Part shown: positions 47,581-52,613 of the stretch, piece by piece | Layout: the number at the start of each line of letters is the position of its first letter | Position numbering within the stretch: position 1 is the stretch's first letter | Source: an uncultured Clostridia bacterium | GTDB lineage: Bacteria > Bacillota > Clostridia > Christensenellales > Pumilibacteraceae | Direction of reading: 5' to 3' | DNA length: 64,000 nt | Assembly (NCBI GenBank): GCA_947175335.1 | Contig: CAMWMF010000003.1 | Coordinates: 84,606 to 148,605 of the forward strand | Program-made: the position numbers and the translations under genes | Notes under the pieces: model-generated | Databases searched by the model: none | Told to the model about the DNA's origin: nothing | Seen by the model: the letters and a program-made list of their open reading frames with translations, nothing else

Positions 47581-47973
47581 ATGAAAACCAAAGAAGCAAC
47601 GATGCAAAAAGAGGACAAGCTGGACGTTCTGTTCAGAATGCAAAAGGGCTTGGATGCTTACATACGCGAAAAACGCAACCTCGATTACAGTAAGGGCGAG
47701 TGGGTGTGCAAAAAGGCGCTCGCGCTTATGGTCGAGCTGGGCGAGGTGGTAGAGGAAGCCAAGTACAAGTGGTGGAAAAATCCCACCGAAATAGACGACG
47801 CCAAGCTTAAAGAGGAGATAGTGGACGTACTTCACTTCTTTTTGGGAATGTGTATAGACAGCGGCATGACGGCTGACGAGTTGTTCGATATTTACCTGAA
47901 AAAGAATAAGGAAAACTACGACCGCCAAAACGGCTTGTCGAGCAAAGCGGGCTATGCTTTAAATGATAATTAA
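47581..47973 (+). CDS. Dimeric all-alpha dUTPase (dUTPase_2/MazG-like)
   Basis: The 130-aa protein has ALMVELGEVVEEAKYKWWKN and KEEIVDVLHFFLGMCIDSGM, the ExxE and ExxD metal-binding helices of the dimeric dUTPase family that hydrolyses dUTP (and dUDP) to dUMP. This family prevents uracil incorporation. ATG 47581 with GGGAGAA upstream is favoured over ATG 47602. It is coupled to the peptidase gene; the ymxH/dap genes found here in Bacillus are missing. Confidence 0.85.
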   Translation: MKTKEATMQKEDKLDVLFRMQKGLDAYIREKRNLDYSKGEWVCKKALALMVELGEVVEEAKYKWWKNPTEIDDAKLKEEIVDVLHFFLGMCIDSGMTADELFDIYLKKNKENYDRQNGLSSKAGYALNDN

Positions 47974-48023
47974 GAATTAAGAATGCAGAATTAAGAATTA
48001 ATCGGAGTAATAGCACAACACCA

Positions 48024-48166
48024 ATGCGGCGGTTCGCCTAGACCCCTCCGCGATGGTCGGGGTGATGGGAGTATGGCAATGCTGTTTGGAAAAAGCAACT
48101 ACCAATCCCCATCATTTCGACCGAAGCGCGTTAGCGCGTAGCGGAGAAATCTAGGCGGAGCCGCAT
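48024..48166. repeat. 143-bp intergenic element with inverted ends
   Basis: ATGCGGC and CGCCTAGA at the left (48024-48042) match the complement of TCTAGGCGGAGCCGCAT at the right (48150-48166). The interior contains a TCATTTCGACCGAAGCGCG segment related to the TCATTCTGAGCGAAGC repeats. Preceding it, 47974-48000 is a degenerate AATTAAGAAT series. No open frame. Confidence 0.7.
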
Positions 48167-48182
48167 AAAATTCTTTTATTAA

Positions 48183-48209
48183 AAAACGGCGCTTATGCGC
48201 CGTTTTTAT
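48183..48209 (-). terminator. Terminator of the XRE gene at 48.2 kb
   Basis: AAAACGGCGC (48183-48192) and GCGCCGTTTT (48197-48206) around TTAT, nearly identical to the hprK terminator; it overlaps the XRE stop codon. Confidence 0.88.
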
Positions 48210-48415
48210 TGTTGACAAAGTATATAGTTTGTATCAACGTCAAGTAACTTACATAAATTTGCAAACGTATCGAGCGCGGGCAAAATATCGCCTTTAATAT
48301 AATGCGCTATTGTAGACTGCGAAATATTCAATTCCTTTGCTATTGCCGTTTGCGTCAGTCCGCTTTGGCGTATGGCTTCCGCTATTCTTTCTCCTATTTG
48401 TTCGGATTTTATCAC
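48206..48415 (-). CDS. XRE-family repressor of the Cys-rich module
   Basis: A 69-aa single-domain Cro/CI-type helix-turn-helix protein: IGERIAEAIRQSGLTQTAIAKEL, recognition helix ISQSTIAHYIKGDI, and a helical end with LCKLLDVDTNYIL. GTG 48415 is preferred because AGAGGTG is about 7 nt upstream; ATG 48430 is the alternative. It is divergent from two Cys-rich genes, with three identical-type palindromes in between, so it most likely represses them and perhaps itself. Confidence 0.85.
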   Translation of the reverse strand: MIKSEQIGERIAEAIRQSGLTQTAIAKELNISQSTIAHYIKGDILPALDTFANLCKLLDVDTNYILCQQ

Positions 48416-48450
48416 GCGTGCACCTCTCATAAAAACTATATAATTAATAT

Positions 48451-48465
48451 ATGATTTTTAATCAT
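48451..48465. promoter_or_regulatory. Operator 1 of the XRE/Cys-rich module
   Basis: Perfect-arm palindrome ATGATTTTTAATCAT, just upstream of the -35 of the Cys-rich operon. Confidence 0.75.
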
Positions 48466-48472
48466 ACTTTGC

Positions 48473-48501
48473 TTGACTTATGATTTATAATCATATATAA
48501 T
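48473..48501 (+). promoter_or_regulatory. Promoter of the Cys-rich operon with operator 2 in the spacer
   Basis: TTGACT (48473-48478), 17 nt, TATAAT (48496-48501). ATGATTTATAATCAT (48480-48494) fills the spacer almost exactly, so bound repressor would block polymerase. Confidence 0.88.
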
Positions 48502-48505
48502 AACT

Positions 48506-48520
48506 ATGATTATAAATCAT
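48506..48520. promoter_or_regulatory. Operator 3 of the XRE/Cys-rich module
   Basis: ATGATTATAAATCAT lies just after the -10 around the start of transcription. Centre-to-centre spacing of operators 1, 2 and 3 is 29 and 26 bp. Confidence 0.75.
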
Positions 48521-48530
48521 AAAAGGATAA

Positions 48531-48794
48531 ATGTGTATGGAAAGATGCAGTCAATGCAAGCATTTTGAAAGGTATTATACAAAAGGCGTAAAGCGGTTTA
48601 GCAAAACGACATTCGGTTTGTGTACCCAAAAGCACGAGAGCGTAAATATTCACGATTGTTGCGAACGCTACAAAGCAGGGGTGAGGTATAGGGGAATAAT
48701 CAGTAAGCGCGTTAAGGTTTGTCTAAACGAATTACTGACAGAAATTTCCGCAATACGCATGGTGATAGAGGAAGAAGCCGATGGCAAGCTATAA
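48531..48794 (+). CDS. Small Cys-rich protein A, putative metal binder
   Basis: The 87-aa protein has C6xxC9, C31 and C43-C44 followed by Glu-Arg-Tyr, in the order CSQCKHFERYY, FGLCTQK and DCCERY. This looks like a four-Cys knuckle that could hold zinc or an Fe-S cluster. The C-terminal 35 residues form a Leu/Glu-rich helix (CLNELLTEISAIRMVIEEE). No named family is recognised. AAAAGG lies upstream; ATG 48537 is an alternative start. The gene overlaps the next by 14 nt and shares its four-Cys pattern. Expression is probably under the divergent XRE repressor. Confidence 0.65.
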   Translation: MCMERCSQCKHFERYYTKGVKRFSKTTFGLCTQKHESVNIHDCCERYKAGVRYRGIISKRVKVCLNELLTEISAIRMVIEEEADGKL

Positions 48795-49026
48795 AAATAA
48801 GTGCAAAACCTGCGACTATTGCAAAAGCTTGTACTTGATGTACGGGTTTAGATTTTGGCGCAGTAAAAGATACTTCTGTGCGCAGCGCAACAAGCCTATC
48901 GGTATTGCCGGCGGTTGCGATACGTGGCAAGCGAGAATACAAAGATACGACCTTTCCGCGCAAAGGTTTGATGAGGTTTCGGACGATATTAATGCCTTGT
49001 TGCGCTATAATACTGGTTGCGACTAG
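48781..49026 (+). CDS. Small Cys-rich protein B, paralogue of A
   Basis: The 81-aa protein has C11xxC14, C33 and C46 followed by Asp-Thr-Trp: CDYCKSLYLMY, YFCAQRNK and GGCDTW. Twelve residues separate C33 and C46, the same gap as C31 to C44 in protein A, and the flanking aromatic and basic residues also align, which suggests tandem duplication. An extra Cys at position 8 precedes the first pair. AGAGGAAG precedes the ATG inside gene A. Function unknown; a heterodimer or sequential role with A is an inference. Confidence 0.6.
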   Translation: MASYKNKCKTCDYCKSLYLMYGFRFWRSKRYFCAQRNKPIGIAGGCDTWQARIQRYDLSAQRFDEVSDDINALLRYNTGCD

Positions 49027-49031
49027 TTACG

Positions 49032-49122
49032 ACAAAAAAGTTTTTGTATGTCGGATAAACTATTTTGTTTAAAAGTTTCTTGCCTACTTCTTTTCAAAGA
49101 AGTAGGACAAAAAAGTTTTTGT
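49032..49122. repeat. Direct repeats and hairpin upstream of ftsK
   Basis: ACAAAAAAGTTTTTGT occurs at 49032-49047 and 49107-49122. Between them CCTACTTCTTT and AAAGAAGTAGG (49083-49106) form a hairpin that is also present at 34186-34209. Confidence 0.75.
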
Positions 49123-49199: not shown

Positions 49200-52100
49200 A
49201 TGGAATTTTACGGGAATCGTTATTCTCGTACAGAGGGTAGAAAAGTGGCACATAACAGAAGTCGTAAAAAGAAAAATAAGCCGAGCAACGGAAATCATGA
49301 TATTTTGGGCGTTACGCTCATCATCATTTCCGCATTTTTGTTGCTTTGCATAGTTATCAAACCTATTCTCGGTGTTTTCAGCGAGGCTATTTTCGGCGTA
49401 CTGTTGGGTGTGTTCGGTATCGCGTCCTATCCGATGTTGATTGCTACGCTTATTTTGGGTATTTTTATTTTGAGCGGGCGCAAGGTGCAGGCCGAAGTTA
49501 AAACAAGGGTGGGCATTGCGCTTGCCGTAATTTTCGGTCTTGTAATTTTGCAGTTGGCGTCCACGCACGCGTTTTTGGGTCAAAAGTTTTCGGCATACAT
49601 CTCGTCGACGTATTCCGCCAAGTATTCCGCGGGCGGCATAATTATGGGACTTGTCGCGTTTGCGTTCAAATCGATTATAACGGAAGCTGCCACGTACGTT
49701 GTATTTTCGCTCGCGCTTATTGTGGATGTCATGCTTATGACGTCGGCGTTTAGCAAGCTTCGCGAGCTCATAAACAAACGCAAGGACAAAAAGGTTAAGG
49801 AGGAGCAGCCCGAGGAGATTGAGCCAGATTTGCCCGTTACGGCGCAAATGGTTGTCGACGCAACGCCGATGCCGGGGCTGTTCACCGACAAGATAGAGCC
49901 GAAAAATGCGGAAATAAGTGTGGAGTCGGGTTCGGCGTCAGACATACCCGTCAGCTCGCCGCGCAAGGTGAGCGATTATTCGGATATGCCGGTATTCGAG
50001 GAGGAGGAAGATTCTGCCGACCGCAGTGCCGCTATGGCCGCCGCGCGTTTCCAGCTTTACAGTGATAAGGAAGAAATCAAACGCCGCGCCGCGGAGGAGT
50101 TCCGTGCGGCCAATACTCAGCCGCAGGTCGAACAGCCGCAGCAGCTTCAAACGGAAGAACCGGTGCGTGTCGCGCCCGAACCGCTTGAATATATGGACCC
50201 TCCGGCGAGGGTAGCAAGCGACGCGCAAAACATAGAGCGGCCGCGCCGTGTGGATTACGACGGCACGCCCGGCAATCTCAACGCGCTGTACTTCCCGCCC
50301 GACAAGAATATCCATTTTAATGACGTCGGAATAGAAACAATAGTGGACGAGCATCCCAAAAAGCCGATAGCTGCCGATCGCAACCGCGAGCCTATTTACG
50401 ACGGCAGCGACAATTACAGACCTGCGTTCGGTATGCCCAAGGCCAATCCGCGCTTGGAGCATGTAGAGCCTATTATAGACGCTTCACAGCCCATTACGCC
50501 TACTATCCCGCCAGTTCAGCCCATACAATCGGCGCCGCCTATATCGTACGCTACGCCGCAGTATGCGCCCGAACCCGAGCCTGTGTCGGTCGATGACAGG
50601 TTTATGCGTGCGTTGGAGGATATGGATAGGCCCAAGATGAACGATATCACGGGCGAATCTGTGCAAACGTACGTTCCGCCGCTTGAAACCGAAAAGTTTA
50701 AGGAAGATATTTTCGACGCCAGCGATGCACTTAATCCTTTTGCAGGTCAGGGCGGTGGCGCAATGCAAGAGCAAGAGGAAATTTTGGACGGCAGCAAGCC
50801 GTACGAGCCCGAGTCGCAAGGACAGTCGGACATAGAGGAAATCAAGCCGGACAAGGATCTTGACAACGACATTATAGACGGTTCGCTCGTTATATCCAAC
50901 GAGCCGGCAATAGACCTCAGCGAGCGCCATTTCGACTACGGCGACGGATTTACGGGCCAAGACAAATCGGGCCTGTACGTTGCGGCGGACGAGCAGGAAA
51001 AGCCTGTCGTAGAGCCCGCCAAGCCCAAGACCAAAAAGAGCAATGCTCCGCTCGAAAACCAAATGACTATACAAGGCGTTTTGCAGCAACAGGCCGAACA
51101 GTCGGTCGTGTCGCAGGACACCAAAAGATACAGGCATTACAACTACAAAACTCCGCCGTACGACTTGCTTAAAATTTACGACGCCGTCGACGCGTCGCAA
51201 GAGGAGCTGCAAGCCAACGCCGAAATTTTGGAAGACGTTGTTTCGCGCTTTTTAAAGACGCAGGTCAGTGTTATCAATATCGTGCCCGGCCCGCAGGTAA
51301 CGCGGTACGAGCTGGACGTGCCCAAGGGAACATCCGTCAAGTCTATCGAATCGCGTTGCGCGGACATAGCGTACGAGCTTGCTGCGGTTAGCGGCGTGCG
51401 TGTGGAAGCGCCTATCCCCGGCAAACGCGCCGTAGGTATAGAGGTTCCCAACAAAAAGAAGGCGATAGTCGGTTTGCGCGAGATTGTGGCTTCGCCTGTG
51501 TTTATCAAGCACAAGTCGCCGATGCTGTTTTCGGTAGGTAAGGATATAGGCGGCGAGCTTGTTGTTTGCGACTTGGAAAAGATTCCGCACTTGCTTATTG
51601 CAGGCCAAACCGGCAGTGGTAAGTCGGCAGGACTTAACAGTCTTATAGTCAGTCTTTTGTACAAGTCCAGTCCCGAGGATTTAAGGTTTATCCTTATCGA
51701 CCCCAAGCGCGTGGAATTCAGTAAATTCCGCGGTATGCCGCACTTGCTGTTTGAAAAGACCATTACCGAGCCCGGCGAAGCGTTAAACGCGCTTAAATGG
51801 GCGGATAAGGAAATGAACAGGCGTTACACCGTTCTGCAAAAGTACGCGTGCAGCAAGCTTGCGGAATACAACAGCATGCCCGACGTAATCAGCGGCAAGC
51901 TCAGCAGGCTTCCGCACATAGTTATAATAATCGACGAGCTTGCCAACCTCATGCAGTCGTCGGTATCGGGCGAGATAGAAAGCAAAATCAGCAGTATAGC
52001 GGCACTTGCCCGTGCTGCGGGTATTCACCTTATAGTCGCAACGCAGCGCCCGTCGGCGGACGTTATTACCGGTACGATCAAAGCTAACTTAACAAGCCGT

Positions 52101-52613
52101 ATCGCGTTTAAGGTTCCCGACGCCACCAACTCCCGCATAATAATCGACGTTACCGGCGCGGAAGCGCTCACAGGTGACGGCGATATGCTGTTCTACCCGC
52201 AGGACGCATACGCGCCCAAGCGCGTTCAGGGCTCGTTTGTAAACGGCGAGGAAGTTTTGTCGGTAGTCAGCCACCTCAAAGAGCATTACGAATGTGACTT
52301 TGACGAGGAAGCCGAAAAGTACGTTGCCGGCGGCAACGGCGGCGGTGGAGTAGGCGGCGACGGCGACGGCGGCGGTGAGCTCGATCCTCTTGCGTCCAGA
52401 GTTATGGCGCACGCCATAAAAGCCAAAAACATATCTACCACTGTTGTTCAGCGTAGGTTCTCAATCGGCTACGCGCGCGCGGCTCGCATTATAGACAACA
52501 TGGAAACGGCAGGGTATCTCGGCCCTCTTTCCGGCAACAACAAGCCGCGCGACGTCTTGATGTCGCCCGAGCAGTATAAAGAAGTGTTCGGACACGATCT
52601 CGACGATAACTGA
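49200..52613 (+). CDS. FtsK/SpoIIIE-family DNA translocase with very long linker
   Basis: The N terminus has a basic stretch and four membrane helices (about residues 30-170). The motor is at the C-terminal end: AGQTGSGKSAGLNSLI is the Walker A loop, IIIIDELANLMQ the Walker B, ATQRPSADVITGTIKANL follows, and the gamma winged helix begins LDPLASRVMAHAI. It pumps DNA at the division or spore septum. At 1137 aa it exceeds SpoIIIE (about 790); the linker (about residues 200-650) is Pro/Glu-rich and holds five copies of a short I-x-D-(G/A)-S motif. GTG 49245 (VAHNRSRKKK) is an alternative start resembling SpoIIIE N termini. Confidence 0.93.
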   Translation: MEFYGNRYSRTEGRKVAHNRSRKKKNKPSNGNHDILGVTLIIISAFLLLCIVIKPILGVFSEAIFGVLLGVFGIASYPMLIATLILGIFILSGRKVQAEVKTRVGIALAVIFGLVILQLASTHAFLGQKFSAYISSTYSAKYSAGGIIMGLVAFAFKSIITEAATYVVFSLALIVDVMLMTSAFSKLRELINKRKDKKVKEEQPEEIEPDLPVTAQMVVDATPMPGLFTDKIEPKNAEISVESGSASDIPVSSPRKVSDYSDMPVFEEEEDSADRSAAMAAARFQLYSDKEEIKRRAAEEFRAANTQPQVEQPQQLQTEEPVRVAPEPLEYMDPPARVASDAQNIERPRRVDYDGTPGNLNALYFPPDKNIHFNDVGIETIVDEHPKKPIAADRNREPIYDGSDNYRPAFGMPKANPRLEHVEPIIDASQPITPTIPPVQPIQSAPPISYATPQYAPEPEPVSVDDRFMRALEDMDRPKMNDITGESVQTYVPPLETEKFKEDIFDASDALNPFAGQGGGAMQEQEEILDGSKPYEPESQGQSDIEEIKPDKDLDNDIIDGSLVISNEPAIDLSERHFDYGDGFTGQDKSGLYVAADEQEKPVVEPAKPKTKKSNAPLENQMTIQGVLQQQAEQSVVSQDTKRYRHYNYKTPPYDLLKIYDAVDASQEELQANAEILEDVVSRFLKTQVSVINIVPGPQVTRYELDVPKGTSVKSIESRCADIAYELAAVSGVRVEAPIPGKRAVGIEVPNKKKAIVGLREIVASPVFIKHKSPMLFSVGKDIGGELVVCDLEKIPHLLIAGQTGSGKSAGLNSLIVSLLYKSSPEDLRFILIDPKRVEFSKFRGMPHLLFEKTITEPGEALNALKWADKEMNRRYTVLQKYACSKLAEYNSMPDVISGKLSRLPHIVIIIDELANLMQSSVSGEIESKISSIAALARAAGIHLIVATQRPSADVITGTIKANLTSRIAFKVPDATNSRIIIDVTGAEALTGDGDMLFYPQDAYAPKRVQGSFVNGEEVLSVVSHLKEHYECDFDEEAEKYVAGGNGGGGVGGDGDGGGELDPLASRVMAHAIKAKNISTTVVQRRFSIGYARAARIIDNMETAGYLGPLSGNNKPRDVLMSPEQYKEVFGHDLDDN

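Follow-up and report, generated by a model that had tools for sequence, protein, structure and literature searches.

An XRE gene and three exact palindromes next to two paralogous four-cysteine proteins with a predicted HiPIP-like fold in a Clostridia genome

In a 64,000-nucleotide stretch of contig CAMWMF010000003.1 from an uncultured Clostridia bacterium (hereafter the window; its own genome is G000, comparison genomes carry other G numbers and loci L numbers), we identified a compact unit made of a gene for an XRE-type DNA-binding protein, three palindromes and two further genes, A and B, which run divergently from the XRE gene and each encode a small protein with four cysteines. This observation, first made in a preliminary description of the stretch, is confirmed, and its relatives make up a conserved family of modules that the libraries searched leave unannotated. 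We see about an even chance that the unit is an XRE-repressed operon of two [4Fe–4S] proteins that have the fold of high-potential iron–sulfur proteins (HiPIPs) and serve a one-electron or accessory role. The unit is flanked by a dUTPase_2-type gene (47581-47973) on one side and an FtsK/SpoIIIE gene (49200-52613) on the other, and genes A and B overlap by 14 bases. Its features are:

48176..48206, no strand: left end of the module beyond the XRE stop codon, from where the DNA resembles the module of genome G008; a hairpin is visible by eye, and the terminator scan lists none here
48206..48430, minus strand: XRE/HTH_3 protein, predicted repressor with a DNA-binding domain alone, 74 residues from ATG 48430 or 69 from GTG 48415
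48451..48465, no strand: predicted operator O1, exact palindrome just upstream of the −35 hexamer
48473..48478, plus strand: −35 hexamer TTGACT, from the promoter scan
48479-48495: promoter spacer of 17 bp between TTGACT and TATAAT
48480..48494, no strand: predicted operator O2, exact palindrome within the spacer; a spacer operator recurs in related modules
48496..48501, plus strand: −10 hexamer TATAAT, from the promoter scan
48506..48520, no strand: predicted operator O3, exact palindrome just downstream of the −10 hexamer, over the expected transcription start
48531..48794, plus strand: protein A, 87 residues, with a predicted four-cysteine HiPIP-like domain and a C-terminal helix (residues 56-86)
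48781..49026, plus strand: protein B, 81 residues, paralogue of A with the same four cysteines and a C-terminal helix (residues 60-78)

The three palindromes, at 48451, 48480 and 48506, are all exact over 15 bp, as first described, with start-to-start spacings of 29 and 26 bp, and they extend to TATGATTNNNAATCATA (17 bp). The claim that one of them fills the 17-bp promoter spacer is likewise correct, the second lying between the hexamers of the near-consensus promoter TTGACT-N17-TATAAT at 48473-48501. With up to two mismatches allowed, the pattern has no further match in the window (0.53 expected; none of 100 shuffles reached three), and with zero or one mismatch it is confined in the whole genome to the three sites of this locus. 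Two-mismatch sites elsewhere in the genome number seven, versus six for a reversed control pattern.

Related modules show the same arrangement built from other sequences. Allowing one mismatch per hexamer, we found the promoter TTGACW-N16-18-TATAAT in 25 of 31 intergenic regions between XRE and A; among the 31, a palindrome in the spacer was accompanied by at least one further copy in 14 regions (0.96 expected) and by at least two in 9 (0.2 expected). After the set was enlarged by 16 modules chosen for having a divergent XRE gene, the promoter was present in 38 of 47 regions; 23 of these 38 had a repeated palindrome including one in the spacer (1.90 expected) and 13 had three or more copies (0.53 expected). 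The palindrome sequence varies among modules (ATGATT, TTCAG, CACC, TATCTC, ACACG, TACTCC and others), and near-identical repressors go with near-identical palindromes (L001/L003; L128/L130). We infer local, private repression by each XRE protein: as every module has its own repressor and a mostly private operator sequence, each would act on itself alone. The changing palindrome within a constant layout offers a natural data set for XRE–operator specificity. The idea that the recognition helix predicts the operator was overall unsupported, with no correlation over 231 pairs of 22 modules (permutation P = 0.295).

The XRE protein matches HTH_3 over residues 15-69 of the 73 scanned (E = 1.7e-12), its domain score of 47.6 bits lying above the gathering score of 23. 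The best 25 of the 41 families that it matches are mostly DNA-binding domains of helix-turn-helix type, and no sensor domain was found in it. The best 25 of 39 NCBIfam models all score below their own cut-offs (RstR 35.9 bits vs. 80). Its initially proposed length of 69 residues is favored, the start at GTG 48415 looking likelier than ATG 48430 because several relatives begin there (MITLEQIQ..) and because, on inspection, AGAGGTG precedes it. The protein is predicted to bind the palindromes and is likely a repressor, a role that the recurring palindrome layout supports indirectly. With its HTH_3 domain, divergent orientation and several palindromes over one promoter, the arrangement resembles the XRE/Cro-type local repressors RstR and DicA, although the XRE protein falls under the NCBIfam cut-offs among the models listed and the genes flanking the module in the window, as scanned, are dUTPase_2 and FtsK and not phage genes. 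A cysteine near the XRE C terminus (YILCQE and similar) marks one branch (L001, L003, L011, L013, L014, L022) and is missing in LLGL-type repressors.

By sequence comparison, A and B are paralogues (pairwise identity 19%, E = 9e-6; profile comparison E = 4.8e-14). On inspection, both show the pattern C-x2-C-x21-C-x12-C. The preliminary description had the CxxC, the third cysteine, the twelve residues and the fourth cysteine right, but the aromatic is the third residue after the last cysteine (C-x-x-Y/W), not the second. The relaxed pattern C-x2-C-x15..30-C-x9..32-C-x2-[FWYH] fits 28 of 29 A-type members, 14 of 15 B-type members and 72 of 75 database relatives (P0010-P0084); 71 of these 75 keep the exact spacing, and the four cysteines are nearly invariant. 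A divergent branch, mostly with a longer third loop, also fits the general pattern (8/8 and 44/44, the latter P0085-P0128). Database relatives numbered 9 with A alone, 84 with the 29-row alignment and 44 with the divergent branch; the few with a source name are called "hypothetical protein" and, if the organism is stated, belong to Firmicutes/Bacillota or Clostridiales.

No homologue with a known function was found in the libraries searched. Neither A nor B belongs to a family of Pfam, PHROGs, NCBIfam or PADLOC, toxin and defence families included, and their few matches there are weak and unconvincing. The 29 A-type members gave weak matches alone in Pfam and NCBIfam, those with a curated cut-off falling below it, and the same holds for seven of the eight aligned divergent-branch members against PHROGs and Pfam (below curated cut-offs where listed). 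Pfam HIPIP and 4HPAD_g_N matched none of A, B and the 29 A-type members, and PDB sequence searches returned nothing significant. The module genes are under purifying selection: ratios of nonsynonymous to synonymous divergence (dN/dS) between G000 and G012 are 0.14 for A, 0.40 for B and 0.28 for XRE, next to 0.09 for dUTPase and 0.03 for M16. Compared with G008, dS is 2.05 for A and saturated for B, and 0.64, 0.53 and 0.67 for XRE, dUTPase and M16; the higher synonymous divergence of A and B, in short sequences, hints at their exchange or paralogy.

Two separate models make a HiPIP-like fold likely for A and B. In the VIA list for the model of A, the HiPIP fold takes ranks 1-10 and 12, and all 15 VIA rows for the model of B are of this fold (pLDDT 67 for the best AF2 model). 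Foldseek alone placed the HiPIP 1b0y first for B (probability 0.92, E = 0.31) and HpdC (2y8n_B) second (E = 2.1); for A it found nothing in PDB and no match in BFVD at E ≤ 0.001. HiPIPs proper (1isu, 1hip, 3h31), which share the fold predicted here, are electron carriers of respiration and photosynthesis and have four cysteines, with 12-15 residues separating the third from the fourth and an aromatic at the third position past the last (PROSITE pattern). A and B follow this order (C-x2-C ... C-x12-15-C-x2-aromatic); the G-[YW] before the last cysteine is absent in A and half present in B (G-G-C). Unlike HiPIPs proper, they come in XRE-linked pairs, and inspection by eye shows no signal peptide. 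On these models, a [4Fe–4S] cluster in each protein is plausible. The early interpretation is supported in part, namely for an XRE-linked metal- or redox-type small-protein module, which the models sharpen to a HiPIP-type fold.

The same cysteines could belong to structural zinc proteins, such as anti-repressors or DNA/RNA-binding ribbons, the HiPIP match then reflecting a shared small beta-sheet scaffold. We consider this explanation possible though fairly unlikely. It accords with the presence of four cysteines in under 50 residues and with weak zinc-ribbon matches (Zn_ribbon_3, E = 0.084, in one of 29 members; the TFIIB ribbon 1pft, E = 0.41, for B), and the BFVD matches of A (best E = 0.04, probability about 1) are small phage proteins, for the most part without a known function, and some of them were named zinc finger or zinc ribbon by their submitters. 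The second cysteine pair, however, is C-x12-C and not a CxxC knuckle, and the VIA rows of either model contain no zinc ribbon, an absence that does not exclude one.

Small HiPIP-fold [4Fe–4S] proteins also occur as accessory subunits, among them the BSS-beta/gamma and MASS-beta/gamma proteins (4pkf, 9pzj, 9o8u), whose fold is as predicted here. HiPIP-fold proteins serve as subunits of glycyl radical enzymes according to PMC12358834 and PMC12590467, and in the former MASS-beta has the HiPIP fold despite no sequence similarity to the BSS subunits. PMC12358834 also describes two clusters in HpdC, the gamma subunit of 4-hydroxyphenylacetate decarboxylase (2y8n_B/2yaj; Pfam 4HPAD_g_N). A and B differ from HpdC in having one four-cysteine set each, an extra C-terminal helix and no clearly significant sequence similarity (hhalign P 0.0048-0.018); HpdC directly adjoins a large subunit (L123-L126, the large subunit recognized by eye), and A and B have no such neighbor in the window. 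While BSS and MASS subunits belong to multisubunit glycyl radical enzymes, no PFL-type enzyme was found in this genome, G000 having no match to the PFL-type glycyl radical domain PF01228 or to 4HPAD_g_N. PF01228 is present in 63 of 101 related genomes, within the genus in 2 of 20 as weak or partial matches, and 8 of 25 A-positive genomes have no match to it.

A itself was matched in 25 of the 101 relatives, own genome included (a match in G084 lies in a 1793-residue frame and is probably spurious), in 39 of 396 genomes of the order, about one in ten, and within a phylum sample of 299 in G000 alone; the order and phylum counts, made at E = 1e-5 with part of the first-look candidates scored, are lower bounds. 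A search of genome contigs with a close-relative query gave four loci, in assemblies named Clostridia or Clostridiales bacterium. After removal of duplicates, 63 short loci came down to 44, two of which (L024, L054) were without a four-cysteine frame. Of the resulting 42, 20 have tandem four-cysteine genes and 31 have a divergent XRE gene within 700 bp, compared with 3 of 269 controls (the other genes of 100 residues or more in 20 long loci); the seed sequences of the XRE profile came from the module loci, a choice that favors them somewhat, and the same profile was applied to the controls. L093 was scored negative although its XRE gene is divergent to its first operon. The co-occurrence with XRE that was to be checked is therefore present.

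The surroundings of the modules are mostly different, with flanking genes common to G000/G012, G009/G005 and partly G037/G060. In a scan of 60 of 68 mechanical frames from 18 loci (the eight left out include the longest), the best 25 of 80 Pfam families of the neighbors were ordinary for a chromosome and included no integrase or transposase, and the best 25 of 48 PHROG families included one match to a structural Ig-domain protein and one to a major tail protein. The genome of the window holds a second, divergent module (L146:3228-3799, G000:C18), consisting of an XRE gene and a single 89-residue four-cysteine protein, which belongs to the GHC-type branch and has a longer third loop. At L127:1886-4569 (G177), two XRE-A-B modules that differ in their regulatory regions stand side by side, followed by a further XRE gene, which has no recognized four-cysteine operon of its own and a recognition helix almost that of the window module. 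The L127 promoter region contains a 30-bp stretch with 29 matches to the window module, and the palindrome search there gave one two-mismatch site, no more than chance.

It seems unlikely to us that the module is a selfish or defensive system of the toxin–antitoxin type, in which A and B would harm the cell or an invader and XRE would hold both off. Three palindromes over a near-consensus promoter would suit it, as would several modules per genome with different operators and a patchy presence (A in 8 of 20 genus genomes; the site lacking the module in 16 of 18). Yet A and B have no toxin signature, as first noted, and no PADLOC family, the XRE gene is divergent and not co-operonic with them, and tblastn found no relatives in phage and plasmid collections (best E = 5). 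Viral contigs, queried with the alignment of close relatives, held no relative either, although distant ones could be missed.

If the unit is instead a repressed operon of HiPIP-like proteins, XRE, likely a repressor of itself and its neighbors, would bind the three palindromes that bracket and fill the A-B promoter and thereby shut it; once repression was lifted, A and B, with their overlapping genes, would be made together. Each would hold one [4Fe–4S] cluster, and the C-terminal helices might pair A with B or clip either onto a partner. The clusters could act as small one-electron donors or acceptors, HiPIP-fold proteins being known as electron carriers, or they could belong to a redox-sensitive accessory subunit, a role proposed for the HiPIP-fold small subunits of glycyl radical enzymes. 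In a more elaborate and rather improbable variant, a split redox switch, the sensorless XRE would leave sensing to its HiPIP-like products, which would bind or release their own repressor by cluster state, the unit having been copied many times around one order with a private operator in each copy and no cross-talk. That A and B are unrecognized accessory subunits of the anaerobic ribonucleotide reductase NrdD is very unlikely: the best fold match is a glycyl radical enzyme small subunit and NrdD, another such enzyme, is present in G000 (C1:6377-8071), but it occurs in 18 of 20 genus genomes and A in 8, so co-occurrence does not single it out, NrdD and the module lie on different contigs (C1, C3), and NrdD is not among the best 25 of 80 families of module neighbors elsewhere.

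As a repressed operon of HiPIP-like proteins, the module would give the fold another setting, with numerous orphan proteins, paralogous to one another and each under its own repressor, in anaerobes that lack the enzyme expected as their partner. The literature covered, outside which most subscription papers fall, showed no account of XRE-controlled orphan HiPIP-like proteins. The module bears on a remark in PMC12590467 that further accessory subunits of other glycyl radical enzymes may remain unidentified. At 80 residues and four cysteines, A and B are a concrete and cheap test object.

The site of the module can be followed within the genus. The dUTPase gene is present in all 20 genomes, and XRE, A and B lie between it and FtsK in G000 and G012 alone; in 16 of the other 18 the two genes adjoin without a match to any of the three, and of the remaining two, FtsK lies beyond the fetched stretch in G009 and the contig ends in G011. 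G008 keeps the site without the module; in another place, that genome carries a closely related XRE-A-B unit that has two palindromes (L003, L033; 74% DNA identity to 48176-48866). Absence from the site in most genus genomes and presence elsewhere in G008 indicate that the unit occupies different sites in different species. In G004 (L075), just before FtsK, a 51-bp stretch aligns at 82% to 48997-49047 (the final 30 bases of B plus sequence past its end) and adjoins what appears to be another inverted-repeat element; this stretch could be what remained after a loss, or an older flank into which the end of B runs.

The 143-bp inverted repeat upstream of the module, initially taken as the bound of an acquired cassette, does exist, but we reject it as a cassette edge. 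It belongs to an interspersed element at 48025-48170 resembling a miniature inverted-repeat transposable element, which occurs in numerous scattered copies and is unconnected with the module: a query with 48000-48206 gave 49 matches in the genome, itself included, the longest others being about 150 bp and up to 86% identical. On the other side, just before FtsK, a direct repeat (20 bp, 95%, spacing 75) flanks a 23-bp imperfect inverted repeat within 49028-49122; G004 and G015 have a single copy of the direct repeat, and 49028-49122 is therefore probably a small insertion.
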